A stretch of DNA of 64,000 bases from Geobacteraceae bacterium. Its GTDB lineage: Bacteria; Desulfobacterota; Desulfuromonadia; Geobacterales; Geobacteraceae. The position numbers and the translations under genes were made by a program. Positions 4,650 through 7,933 of the stretch are shown here, piece by piece. Numbering within the stretch: the stretch's first letter is position 1; each line of letters opens with the position of its first letter. The DNA is taken from assembly GCA_009773645.1 (NCBI GenBank), contig WSYB01000007.1:1-64000 (forward strand). Direction: 5' to 3'. The notes below the pieces were generated by a model. It had not been told where the DNA came from, did not search any database, and worked only from the letters and a program-made list of their open reading frames with translations.

Positions 4650-4802
4650 CTATAACGTCTCTCTCTCTTCAGGGAGCTGATCGGGATTCTCTTCGGGCTG
4701 CTTATTGTTTTTATCCAGTTTGCGTTGCAGTTTTTCTTCGTTCTTTTTTTTCTTTTCCAATTCTTTTTGCCGCTTTTGAAATTGAAAATTAGGTTTTGCC
4801 AT
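4650..4802 (-). CDS. Small, highly charged Lys/Glu-rich protein
   Basis: 50 residues. The start was set at the ATG at 4802 because AAAGGGGGTG lies just upstream and the product begins MAKPNFQFQKRQKEL. The middle is almost entirely Lys, Glu, Gln, Arg and Asn, with predicted long helix or coiled-coil character, and the end is acidic. Short proteins of this composition occur widely in proteobacteria without known function. It lies between two unknown genes on the same strand. A nucleic-acid or ribosome association is possible from charge alone but is only a guess. Confidence 0.65.
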   Translation of the reverse strand: MAKPNFQFQKRQKELEKKKKNEEKLQRKLDKNNKQPEENPDQLPEERETL

Positions 4803-4883
4803 CGTGTCACCCCCTTTGAAACTCATATATTCCCATCCGGAAATTCCGATGGCCATTGATTACGTTTCCAATTCGAAAACGAG

Positions 4884-5390
4884 CTACTGTTCCCCCTTCT
4901 CATTCCAAATCGGGTTTTTTTTGTCGTCGGGATGGAGCTTTGCGCGCTCTTCCGGATCCACATGCCAAAAAGACCTGTCGATGGCGCCTTCGGCGTATTC
5001 CTGTTTTTGGTCATGGGCAAAGGGACACCACCAGTTTTCCACTATCTTCACCAGATACGCAGCGTACCTGAAGAGTGCGACACTCAACGGACAGTAGAGC
5101 TTGCAGTTGAATGCCCAAAAGAACCTGTAGCGTGCCGCATGAAGCCGCGATACGTTGATGGTTGGCTGATCTTTATTGATATATCTATGGGAAATCCACG
5201 TGGGGACAAAATCCCCATATGATTTAATCTCCATTCCGCCGACATATTTCAGATGCGTCTTGACCAGAAAAACTCCGATGGCCACAAACGGTATAGTCGT
5301 AATGATCGGTATGTAGATGAGTGGAACACCCAGTATCACTTTCCAGAAGGGTTGCTTTTCATAGTTGCAGCCAATCCTTACCCTATCCAT
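4884..5390 (-). CDS. Conserved-looking membrane-associated protein, unknown
   Basis: 168 residues. A hydrophobic stretch at about 15-43 looks like one long or two short membrane helices. The remainder is soluble and aromatic-rich, with a WWCPFAHDQK segment near 115-125 and a charged C-terminus (DPEERAKLHPDDKK). The Cys and His in the WWCPFAH segment could bind metal or be structural. The ATG at 5390 has AAGG 7 bases upstream. I do not recognise the family. It heads a run of three small minus-strand genes whose shared orientation hints at a common role. Confidence 0.65.
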   Translation of the reverse strand: MDRVRIGCNYEKQPFWKVILGVPLIYIPIITTIPFVAIGVFLVKTHLKYVGGMEIKSYGDFVPTWISHRYINKDQPTINVSRLHAARYRFFWAFNCKLYCPLSVALFRYAAYLVKIVENWWCPFAHDQKQEYAEGAIDRSFWHVDPEERAKLHPDDKKNPIWNEKGEQ

Positions 5391-5689
5391 AAATTGCCTT
5401 TTTCATGTCGAGATCCCTGCACCCACGTTTACTCCCTTATTACCATGCAGTCTGAGCGTCCAGCCATTGCGAAGGATTTCACGGACGGGATTTCACACGG
5501 AAAGGAACCGTACGGACTGTTCCGGCGGGTTTATCAGAGAGGCAGAGGCAAATTGCCCCGTAACCGGAGGAAACAATTACAGGAGGCAGGTCAGCGGTTG
5601 ATCTTACGCTGTTATCAGCTTAATAGATAGTTAATTGTTCAGGGTGCACGCCTTCCGTGTGCACTCTGACGCGTTAATGAAAATAATGC
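5391..5689. other. Gene-free stretch between divergent genes
   Basis: No gene is visible on either strand. It contains an 11-base-arm imperfect hairpin at 5641-5667 (AGGGTGCAC with GTGCACTCT), upstream of the rhlE promoter. The region should also carry the promoter of the minus-strand gene ending at 4884, which I could not place with confidence. Confidence 0.4.
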
Positions 5690-5718
5690 TTGCATTCTGA
5701 TATAAAAATGTCTATGGT
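5690..5718 (+). promoter_or_regulatory. Candidate sigma70-type promoter for rhlE
   Basis: TTGCAT (5690-5695) and TATGGT (5713-5718) are separated by exactly 17 bases. A start point near 5725 would give a 5' leader of about 375 bases before rhlE, unusually long and containing strong stem-loops. Confidence 0.5.
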
Positions 5719-5738
5719 AAGACGTTCAGCTTATCGGC

Positions 5739-5930
5739 CCGGCAGGTACAGGGGAGCAACCGTTCGCCTGCCGGCACTGACTTCTTTTTGTTTCATCGTT
5801 CACTAACCCCCCTGCTTTCAGTTACTTTCCCTGAAATTGCAGTAGCACAAACGGTTGGCGACGATGTATCGATGTCGGTCAACCATTGCTACTGCCGTCC
5901 TTTATCAGCGGGCCATCAGTTTGGCCCCGC
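5739..5930 (+). promoter_or_regulatory. Structured 5' leader of rhlE (three stem-loops)
   Basis: Three hairpins stand out. 5739-5774 pairs CCGGCAGG with CCTGCCGG and is followed by a T-rich run. 5840-5894 is a long hairpin in which an outer stem CAGTAGC/GCTACTG encloses an inner stem GGTTG.CGAC/GTCG..CAACC. 5908-5930 pairs GCGGGCCA with TGGCCCCGC. Long structured leaders are known for cold-shock and helicase genes, where they control mRNA stability and translation. That this one does so is inference. No known riboswitch consensus was recognised. Confidence 0.55.
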
Positions 5931-6099
5931 GGCTTTCGCATGTAAACTCTTGCCCTTGAGCCCCGTGCAAATCATCGTTACACCCAGATTGCCGCGCTGC
6001 GCGCATTGACCTGTTTTTTCCCGTCATTGCCCATATAACCGACGCAGCAATCCACGATAGTGCTGAATTTTTTGCGCGCCTCACAGATAAGGAATCACT

Positions 6100-7467
6100 A
6101 TGTCTTTTGCAGAACTCCAGCTACACCCATCCATCCTCAAGGCCATCGACGCATGCGGCTACACCGAGCCGACCCCGATCCAGGAAAAGGCCATCCCGAT
6201 GGCCATGGCAGGCCATGACCTGATCGCAACCGCCCAGACCGGCACCGGTAAAACGGCGGCCTTTGTTCTGCCGGCACTTCAGCGCCTGAACGTCCCTTCA
6301 ACCGGAACAGGCCGCGGTCCGCGGATGCTGATCCTGACGCCGACCCGTGAACTGGCCAACCAGATAACCGACTCCATCCGCAGCTACGGCAAGTTCATGC
6401 GGGTGAAAAGCTGCGCCATACTGGGGGGTATGCCCTATCGGGAGCAGCTACGTCTCCTGTCACAACCGGTTGATATCGTGATCGCCACGCCGGGCCGACT
6501 GATCGACCACCTGGATAACCGGCGCATCGATCTGCGCCGTCTGGAAATGCTCATTCTCGATGAAGCCGACCGGATGCTGGATATGGGCTTCACGGAGGAT
6601 GTGGACAAGATCGCCGCCGCCGCGCCGTCCAACCGGCAGACCCTGATGTTCACCGCCACCATGGACAACACCATGGCCCAGCTCGCCCAGCGCCTCCTGA
6701 ACAGCCCGGAGCGGATCACCATTGCCGGCAAGAAGGCCACCCTTGAAAATATCGAGCAGCGCCTCCATGTGGCCGATGACCTGCGCCACAAGAACCGCCT
6801 GCTGCAGCATTTCGTATCGGACATCACCGTGACCAAGGCGATCATCTTCTCCGCCACCAAGCGAGATGCCGACGCCCTCGCCCAGGAACTCTACGAGCAG
6901 GGTCACAAGGTGGCGGCGCTCCACGGCGACATGAACCAGGGCGCGCGCAACCGCACCATCACCGACATGCGCCGTGGCAAGGTACGGCTCCTGGTGGCCA
7001 CCGATGTGGCCGCCCGCGGCCTCGACGTGTCCGGTATCAGCCACGTCATCAACTTCGACCTCCCAAAGTTCGCCGAGGACTACGTTCACCGGATCGGCCG
7101 GACCGGCCGTGCCGGAGCTTCCGGCGTTGCCATCTCCTTCGCCTCGCTCAATGACCAGAACTACCTGGACAAGATCGAGCGCTTCATCGGCCAGCCCCTG
7201 CCGCAGCATGTAATCCCGGGGCTGGAGCCGACACGGGGACTGCGCCCCAAAAGCACCACATCCAGGGGCCACAAGCGCGGCGCGCCGACGGCGGGACGGA
7301 AAAGCAACGCTGCCCCTGCATCCCGTTGGAGCGACAACGGTGCCGAAAGCGGCGCAGGGAACGGCAAGTCCCGCATCAAGAAATGGGGGGCGCCGAAGAC
7401 CTCGAAGGCGGTGACCGTGGAATACCGCGGCGCCGGCGCCAATCGGCCGAGCCGACGGGTGATATAA
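6100..7467 (+). CDS. rhlE: DEAD-box ATP-dependent RNA helicase RhlE
   Basis: A 455-residue RNA helicase that unwinds RNA duplexes, typically in ribosome assembly and RNA decay, often at low temperature. Family motifs in order: Q motif PTPIQ (25-29), Walker A AQTGTGKT (45-52), PTRELA (81-86), TPGR (130-133), DEAD (154-157), then FTAT (184-187) in place of the usual SAT. The second RecA domain has ATDVAARGLD and HRIGRTGR. The C-terminal 80 residues are basic and rich in Gly, Ser and Arg, as in RhlE RNA-binding tails. AAGGAA precedes the ATG. It has its own promoter and leader and ends at a strong terminator. Confidence 0.93.
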   Translation: MSFAELQLHPSILKAIDACGYTEPTPIQEKAIPMAMAGHDLIATAQTGTGKTAAFVLPALQRLNVPSTGTGRGPRMLILTPTRELANQITDSIRSYGKFMRVKSCAILGGMPYREQLRLLSQPVDIVIATPGRLIDHLDNRRIDLRRLEMLILDEADRMLDMGFTEDVDKIAAAAPSNRQTLMFTATMDNTMAQLAQRLLNSPERITIAGKKATLENIEQRLHVADDLRHKNRLLQHFVSDITVTKAIIFSATKRDADALAQELYEQGHKVAALHGDMNQGARNRTITDMRRGKVRLLVATDVAARGLDVSGISHVINFDLPKFAEDYVHRIGRTGRAGASGVAISFASLNDQNYLDKIERFIGQPLPQHVIPGLEPTRGLRPKSTTSRGHKRGAPTAGRKSNAAPASRWSDNGAESGAGNGKSRIKKWGAPKTSKAVTVEYRGAGANRPSRRVI

Positions 7468-7483
7468 CTCCCGCACCGGCAAA

Positions 7484-7552
7484 GCACGTGTCCGTAAACG
7501 AAAAGACCCTCTCCCGTGGTGGAAGAGGGTCTTTTCGTTTAGCGCCACGTGC
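7484..7552. terminator. Strong bidirectional terminator between rhlE and the che cluster
   Basis: AACGAAAAGACCCTCT is complementary to AGAGGGTCTTTTCGTT across a short loop, giving a 16-bp stem at 7497-7539 with T-runs on both strands. GCACGTG and CACGTGC extend the symmetry outward. It serves the plus-strand rhlE and the minus-strand chemosensory genes, whose last stop is at 7556. Confidence 0.9.
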
Positions 7553-7555
7553 ACA

Positions 7556-7933
7556 TCAGGCAATATTCAGCAAGGTCCTTGCCACATCCAGAATCCTGTT
7601 CGGCTGTATCGGCTTGGTTATATAGTCGCTGGCCCCGAGAGCCAATGCCCGCTCCCGGTCTTCCTGGGCACCTTCGGTGGTTATCACCACAATCGGTGTA
7701 TCTTTATAATCAGCGTCGTTGCGAATCAGGCTCACCAGTTTTAATCCGTCCATTATCGGCATGTTTATGTCGGTAAAAATCAGGTCGAATTTCTCTGCCG
7801 AAAGCTTTTTCAAACCATCAACACCGTCGTTGGCTTCAGTGATCCGTATCCCGCGCAATCTCTTCAGGGCAAATGATATAAGCTGCCTCATCGTAGGGGA
7901 ATCTTCCACTATCAATACCTGGTATTCCAACAT
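7556..7933 (-). CDS. Single-domain response regulator (CheY-like)
   Basis: A 125-residue receiver with no output domain. Conserved residues: the acidic pair Glu10-Asp11, phospho-acceptor Asp55 in TDINMP, Thr85-Thr86 in VITTEG, and Lys107 in ITKP. It is expected to be phosphorylated by the CheA of this cluster and to act through protein contacts. CGGAGG lies 9 bases before the ATG. It is the last gene of the minus-strand chemosensory cluster, 30 bases after the GAF protein gene. Its specific partner is unknown. Confidence 0.9.
   Translation of the reverse strand: MLEYQVLIVEDSPTMRQLISFALKRLRGIRITEANDGVDGLKKLSAEKFDLIFTDINMPIMDGLKLVSLIRNDADYKDTPIVVITTEGAQEDRERALALGASDYITKPIQPNRILDVARTLLNIA

Follow-up and report, generated by a model that had tools for sequence, protein, structure and literature searches.

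The leader of rhlE in the 64,000-nt stretch of Geobacteraceae DNA analysed here (the window) contains a conserved, structured RNA on the plus strand (5739–5933), delimited by comparison and without a match in Rfam, in which one strand can pair with either of two others. Its layout and its gene association point to a new cis-regulatory RNA family, the peculiarities of which would be the shared-strand layout and the helicase and RRM targets. We give about an even chance to the proposal that the rhlE leader is a conserved two-state cis-regulatory RNA which controls its own gene and is set by temperature or the amount of helicase.

The rhlE gene (6100–7467, plus strand) encodes a DEAD-box RNA helicase of 455 amino acids (Pfam DEAD, 1.5e-52; Helicase_C, 3.9e-34) and is preceded by a Shine-Dalgarno sequence, AAGGA (6089–6093, plus strand), recognised in the sequence. 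The promoter on the same strand (5690–5718), TTGCAT (5690–5695) and TATGGT (5713–5718) separated by 17 bp, was assigned from its sequence and from a place and spacing as in homologues; it matches 7 of 12 consensus bases and is absent from the output of the promoter scan. A promoter match of at least 9/12 was present in the 200 nt preceding the element in 61 of 152 non-redundant leaders, versus 4.3% of shuffles. Judged by these comparisons, the rhlE promoter is weak by consensus yet conserved. Transcription would start near 5725, so that the leader would be approximately 375 nt long. The only listed open reading frame of at least 60 amino acids inside it (5788–6009, plus strand, TTG start, 73 amino acids) has no Pfam match. 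A preliminary description of this DNA had claimed a 17-bp-spaced promoter followed by about 375 bases without a gene, and both parts of this claim were borne out, the promoter with support from the homologues. As 58 of the 61 promoter matches end 35–80 nt before the element, the conserved block is probably transcribed, which argues against the explanation that it is not a regulatory RNA at all (a conserved DNA site, a coding remnant or chance). The block could in principle be bound as DNA, but no conserved open reading frame was found and pairs in P3–P6 and P4 show compensatory changes (see below), and we consider this explanation highly improbable.

Other features of the locus were recorded alongside. 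Two divergent open reading frames lie upstream of rhlE on the minus strand (4884–5390, 168 amino acids; 4650–4856, 68 amino acids), neither with a Pfam match. After rhlE, a perfect 17-bp inverted repeat with an 11-nt loop (7496–7540) ends in TTTTCGTTT and is likely a (bidirectional) terminator, its loop exceeding the size handled by the terminator scan. The approximately 150 nt between the core element and the Shine-Dalgarno sequence (5940–6085) can be aligned in L001–L005, are absent from the shortest leaders and contain the common, unexplained blocks CTCTTGCC, TTGAGCC and GCTGAATTTTTTGCG.

The leader of the window was predicted to fold at −118.5 kcal/mol, compared with −104.4 ± 5.8 kcal/mol for shuffled sequences (z −2.44), and 3 of 100 shuffles were equally stable; its predicted stability is thus moderately beyond that of shuffles, not extreme. 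The minimum free energy fold contains stable hairpins at approximately 5739–5774, 5840–5894 and 5910–5927, and all three hairpins that had been proposed in the preliminary description were therefore recovered. For the second of these, which had been described as carrying nested stems, the outer stem (5840–5847/5887–5894) was confirmed, whereas the inner GGTTG/CAACC pairing is confined to the window and its nearest relatives; what is conserved inside this stem is the pairing of GGTTGGC (5853–5859) with GTCGGTC (5874–5880). When the leaders of relatives were folded (93 leaders, 47 of which were shuffled), 39 of the 47 were more stable than their own shuffles. This stability, together with the lower expression of Caulobacter rhlE fusions after removal of the 5' UTR (PMC5472812), would fit a folded leader that mainly protects the mRNA or yields a small RNA and does not switch. 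Such a platform would leave both the covariation of two exclusive helices and the invariant strands unexplained, and seems quite improbable to us.

The covariance model R1 delimits the element at 5788–5936 of the plus strand (141.4 bits), and the following parts, all on this strand, were distinguished. The 5' hairpin P0 (5739–5774, stem 5739–5746/5767–5774) is taken from the predicted fold; by eye, its arms vary among relatives and remain complementary (CCGGCAGG, GGCGGC, GGGGA and GACGG types). P1a joins CAUCG (5794–5798) to CGAUG (5862–5866), a partner placed by the alignments in the loop of P4, and would be a pseudoknot if P4 is formed. Strand A (CUAACC, 5803–5808) pairs with strand B to give P1b, as judged from pairing counts against shuffles. 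The P2 hairpin (5812–5842, CUGCUUUCAG/CUGAAAUUGCAG), the GCAG of which overlaps P3, has arms of the types CUGC/GCAG, CUGU/ACAG and CUGCAU/AUGCAG in relatives (by eye). P3 (5840–5894) rests on the predicted fold and on covariation. Strand B (GGUUGGC, 5853–5859), with GG--GGC near-invariant in alignment A4, is common to P1b and P4, and its other partner, strand C (GUCGGUC, 5874–5880), forms P4 with it, a helix assigned by covariation. P5 (5895–5898/5929–5932), likewise assigned by covariation, surrounds P6 (5910–5915/5922–5927), the two spanning 5895–5932. P0, P2 and P6 are variable hairpins, and the most conserved strands are CAUCGNUCNCURACC in the A region and GGUUGGCGACGAUG in the B region.

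The preliminary description would have been refuted by a leader that is not conserved, and conservation was examined. By DNA similarity alone, the leader was found in 23 of 97 genomes (that of the window included), in all 23 directly upstream of rhlE. A whole-genome search with R1, which models the core and was run blind to genes, gave one match each in 81 of the 97 relatives, covering 24 of 28 genera, and all 81 matches were located on the same strand just before an RhlE-like open reading frame. The leader is thus conserved. Thirteen of the 16 genomes without an R1 match possess an rhlE orthologue (59–73% identity); a direct search of these 13 leaders revealed the element in six (27.9–39.2 bits), the L282 leader looks degenerate by eye, and six others have a different leader. 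In the remaining three of the 16, the best match at E 1e-80 had 45% (G070) or 42% (G078) identity or was missing (G072). Among the paralogous DEAD-box loci examined, 0 of 17 carried the element (best score, 9.5 bits). CAUCG lies 145–345 nt before the start codon in 190 leaders, a non-independent set, since some genomes entered it through two collections. The layout found is thus that of a cis-regulatory RNA: a conserved structure that shares the strand of a single gene family and immediately precedes its members.

The six same-order rhlE orthologues without the element (L273–L276, L279 and L281; 300 nt before rhlE inspected) have another leader in common, with a 5' hairpin like TGCCCTGGCGGGCAG, a block CGCCTTTCTC and CCGCC nearby. 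In L015, this alternative 5' hairpin and the main element occur together.

The element extends well beyond these relatives. In 395 genomes of the phylum, R1 gave 29 matches, 24 of them before rhlE (including L137, which is without strand B and was excluded from later alignments), and R2 gave 24 matches, 23 of them before rhlE; because strict filters were used in both phylum searches, these counts are lower bounds. An exact two-part pattern searched in 84,980 species was present on 63 contigs from three phyla, among which we presume, partly from tree labels, Desulfobacterota and Pseudomonadota, and 59 of the 63 occurrences were before rhlE on the same strand. The taxa with the pattern were Geobacter relatives, Syntrophobacteraceae, Nitrospirae, Gammaproteobacteria, Sulfuricaulis, Muproteobacteria, Plasticicumulans, Methylophilaceae and Gallionellaceae. 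Of the four other contigs, L154 and L183 end past the element, the L154 place having been recovered a second time as L213, where rhlE follows, and the remaining two are L182 and L200 (see below). When R2 was run on 369 genomes of the Plasticicumulans class, it gave five matches, three of them before rhlE. The rhlE locus of E. coli contains no element (4.5 kb searched with filters off; best score, 4.4 bits). Nine entries that score 22–34 bits and are not before rhlE or an RRM gene (L131–L135, L214, L215, L229 and L272, the last being the L134 place) were read as false positives. L182 has the element with only a C-terminal RhlE remnant behind it, and the stretch of L200 has the element and no rhlE (insertion or loss).

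A tree was built from 65 proteins, RhlE and paralogues (short proteins L005, L139, L185 and L216 dropped, rows cut at 420 amino acids). All 40 rows with the element fell into one supported clade (98/100), which also holds seven orthologues without the element; the paralogues and E. coli RhlE lie outside it. The element label required 3 changes on this tree, compared with 20.2 in shuffles. The root serves for drawing only, and E. coli RhlE and L123 are placed with uncertainty. Two Nitrospirota proteins, L157 and L189 (set against L142), were placed inside a Pseudomonadota group; here the gene may have been transferred between phyla along with its leader, or the binning of the metagenome-assembled genomes may be at fault. 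The RNA element that the preliminary description had suspected in the rhlE leader is thus real in the sense of being conserved, structured and specific to one rhlE clade. The restriction to one RhlE clade and the absence from paralogues would also be expected of a binding site through which RhlE or a partner represses or destabilises its own mRNA in the manner of ribosomal proteins and without thermosensing, and the higher activity of an rhlE-lacZ fusion in a Caulobacter rhlE mutant, reported in PMC5472812, agrees with such autoregulation. The conserved strands matched E. coli 16S and 23S rRNA, sense and antisense, no better than shuffled strands did (lowest p 0.13), so that rRNA mimicry was rejected within this comparison. 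With no mimicry found, and with the copies before RRM genes (see below) requiring RhlE to act in trans, we regard a protein-binding autoregulatory site as unlikely.

A second target gene was found in the phylum of L189, a Nitrospiria bacterium, where R2 gave 25 matches in 16 of 245 genomes: 14 before rhlE, 10 before a gene for a short glycine-rich protein with a single RRM, and one that was read as false. The RRM assignment is based on Pfam for the one protein scanned (RRM_1, 1.5e-26) and on tblastn for all ten. The ten copies are distributed over nine genomes, eight of which also have an rhlE copy, and CAUCG lies 169–207 nt before the start codons of the ten RRM genes. The element is therefore more than an invariable attachment to rhlE, having been re-used for another RNA-binding gene, with RRM copies known from one Nitrospirota group only. 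In the genome of the window, which has two RRM genes, the R2 search found nothing else above 15.8 bits, and L239, the one of its two RRM leaders that was read (the other being L240), contains no element. Approximately 65–40 nt before the RRM start, L239 has a terminator-like hairpin, CCCAGGGA...TCCCTGGG, followed by a T-rich run, a possible attenuator judging from its sequence.

The same two unlinked targets, the pseudoknot-like layout and the length of the conserved stretches, which exceeds what pairing needs, would be compatible with a riboswitch, in which a small molecule or ion signalling cold, stringency or the energy state is bound in a pocket made by the invariant strands (CAUCGNUCNCURACC and GGUUGGCGACGAUG). 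The targets found are an RNA helicase and an RRM protein only, with no transporter or biosynthesis gene among them, and nearly every element-bearing genome outside Nitrospirota has a single match; both observations speak against a riboswitch, which we consider unlikely.

The preliminary description had named covariation among rhlE leaders as a check on the structure. This analysis was run, and two-sided changes beyond those of shuffles, counted by cell, were obtained in both P3–P6 and P4. For P3–P6 together (22 rows), 24 two-sided cells were counted versus 9.0 in shuffles, none of 500 of which was as high, and 87.9% of cells were paired compared with 26–53% for slid versions; the number of pairs with two-sided change was 6, not beyond shuffles (4.4; 106 of 500 as high). 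In P3, 80.1% of cells were paired and pairs 63/116 and 65/114 varied on both sides, the stem being absent from L019; P5 (95.5% paired) and P6 (82.5% paired) both displayed two-sided changes in the 22 rows. Alignment A1 omits L008, a near copy of L007. For P4, alignment A7 (64 of 65 sources, L082 being unmatched), which was fitted to P4, had 93.8% of cells paired compared with 22–48% for slid versions, and 14 two-sided cells versus 3.5 (0 of 500 shuffles as high); two pairs showed two-sided change versus 1.1, again not beyond shuffles (64 of 500). In alignment A5, consisting of 38 GGUU-type rows from the 58 rows of A4 (GGCAGG and GGCUGG rows and rows without a clear strand C removed), standard pairs made up 98.1% of the cells in P1 and 94.0% of those in P4; here variation was one-sided, fitting both P1 and P4, with no two-sided change. 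P1a was paired in 97.9% of the A5 cells and is nearly invariant with no two-sided change, so that it has no covariation support.

Since strand B is shared, its pairing with each partner was assessed by strand class in 161 rows, near copies included, and by shuffling B in 67 non-redundant rows of these. Strand B was GGUUGG in 128 of the 161 rows, GGCAGG in 22, GGCUGG in 4 and of other types in 7. Full A–B pairing (P1b) was possible in 57 of the 67 leaders, compared with a mean of 47.1 and a maximum of 53 for shuffled B (0 of 1000 as high). A 6-bp P4 was possible in 44 of 67 rows (shuffled-B maximum 43, 0 of 1000 as high), and a 5-bp P4, possible in 51 of 67, was not better than shuffled B (48 of 1000 as high). 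Among the 134 rows whose B has a central UU, the A strands paired fully with GGUUGG in 133 cases and with GGCAGG or GGCUGG in none; those of the 22 GGCAGG rows paired fully with GGCAGG in 14 cases, with GGUUGG in four (through G-U) and with GGCUGG in none, which leaves 8 of the 22 without a full P1b; and those of the four GGCUGG rows were divided between GGCUGG (two) and GGUUGG (two). The same test discriminates poorly for strand C, with 112 of the 134 rows pairing with their own class versus 91 and 101 with the others; in the GGCAGG rows, 19 of 22 C strands paired with their own class. Independent changes of B are few, comprising one large clade and two small lineages (L065/L075 and L059/L106), and the B strand of L106 pairs at only 4 of 6 positions with its A. 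Some genera retain P4 but not a full P1b.

As P1b and P4 use the same nucleotides of B, their full forms are mutually exclusive, an arrangement that would suit a switch. As far as the alignments go, both options are kept in most lineages and covariation supports both, with few independent changes, and a shared strand with two covarying partners is most simply read as the mark of a two-state switch.

Rfam 15 gave no match in the whole window, and a search of 5400–6200 up to E 10 gave only five minus-strand matches that fell well short of the gathering threshold, four of them to eukaryotic families. An intrinsic terminator between the element and the gene was not conserved, being predicted in 9 of 99 leaders versus 23 of 495 shuffles, and the terminator scan found none on the plus strand of 5000–7800. 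An upstream open reading frame starting in the GACGATG (CGAUG) loop, of which only the ATG was considered as a start, was absent from 38 of 99 leaders and 1–80 codons long in the other 61, and was rejected as an attenuator, the reading frame not being conserved. The Shine-Dalgarno sequence was not clearly masked, its predicted accessibility being 0.18 versus 0.21 in shuffles (p 0.056), and that of the start codon was 0.44 versus 0.43; a simple RNA thermometer thus gains no clear support from the folding. Folding at two temperatures, with a model that excludes pseudoknots, was carried out for 93 of the 99 leaders (six have no recognised strand B). Between 37°C and 10°C the predicted pairing of P1b rose in 27 and fell in 7 of the 93, and that of P4 fell in 22 and rose in 9; in any RNA, a long-range helix may gain on a local hairpin in the cold, so this trend may be a general one.

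On the two-state reading, strands A and B would pair first during transcription, forming P1b, and once strand C emerges, P4 together with P3 could displace this helix. The balance between P1b and P4 would be set by the ease of helix opening, and hence by temperature and the amount of RNA helicase or chaperone. Output of rhlE would in this way track the cell's need for RNA unfolding, and RhlE would likely feed back on it. The output step would be translation initiation or mRNA stability, not an intrinsic terminator, a guess by exclusion. By analogy, cold or helicase level as the trigger would fit the two target genes and the Caulobacter data. For Caulobacter crescentus, PMC5472812 reports that a 186-nt rhlE 5' UTR raises expression, that the cold induction of RhlE is mainly post-transcriptional and that an rhlE mutant shows higher expression of rhlE fusions. 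In Synechocystis, cold adaptability depends on Rbp1, a glycine-rich RRM protein (PMC9333190).

Several described systems resemble the element in part. The Caulobacter crescentus 5' UTR is also a structured leader of an rhlE gene, but no conserved motif is described in the portion of PMC5472812 consulted, and the two were compared by description only. The E. coli cspA thermosensor, at the 5' end of an mRNA for an RNA chaperone, likewise has two conformers and acts in the cold (PMC9947658); it belongs to an unrelated gene, whereas the present leader precedes a helicase gene and its competing strands show covariation across phyla. The Synechocystis RNA helicase CrhR controls its own expression in a temperature-dependent manner, for which the abstract of PMC3485376 names transcript and protein half-life and no conserved leader RNA. 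The orphan riboswitch candidates of Geobacter (yjbM and nifV motifs) are likewise rare structured leaders in the same genus, but they precede other genes, and 'rhlE' and 'DEAD' are absent from the main text of PMC11109978 as available. No description of the element was found in the largely open-access literature searched or in the main texts of two motif surveys, one of which covers Geobacter.

Little is understood of the ways in which bacteria monitor RNA folding and set the levels of their DEAD-box helicases, and the conserved leader offers a concrete RNA for in vitro tests of helicase feedback or cold sensing. The element would also single out, among the several DEAD-box paralogues of a genome, the one that is regulated. 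A wider and more tentative possibility, which we consider less likely than not, is a new class of RNA that reads RNA-unfolding capacity, in which RhlE, an RRM chaperone or cold would move strand B between its helices in at least three phyla. If the element is such a sensor, genes for RNA helicases and chaperones would be set by the very activity they encode.
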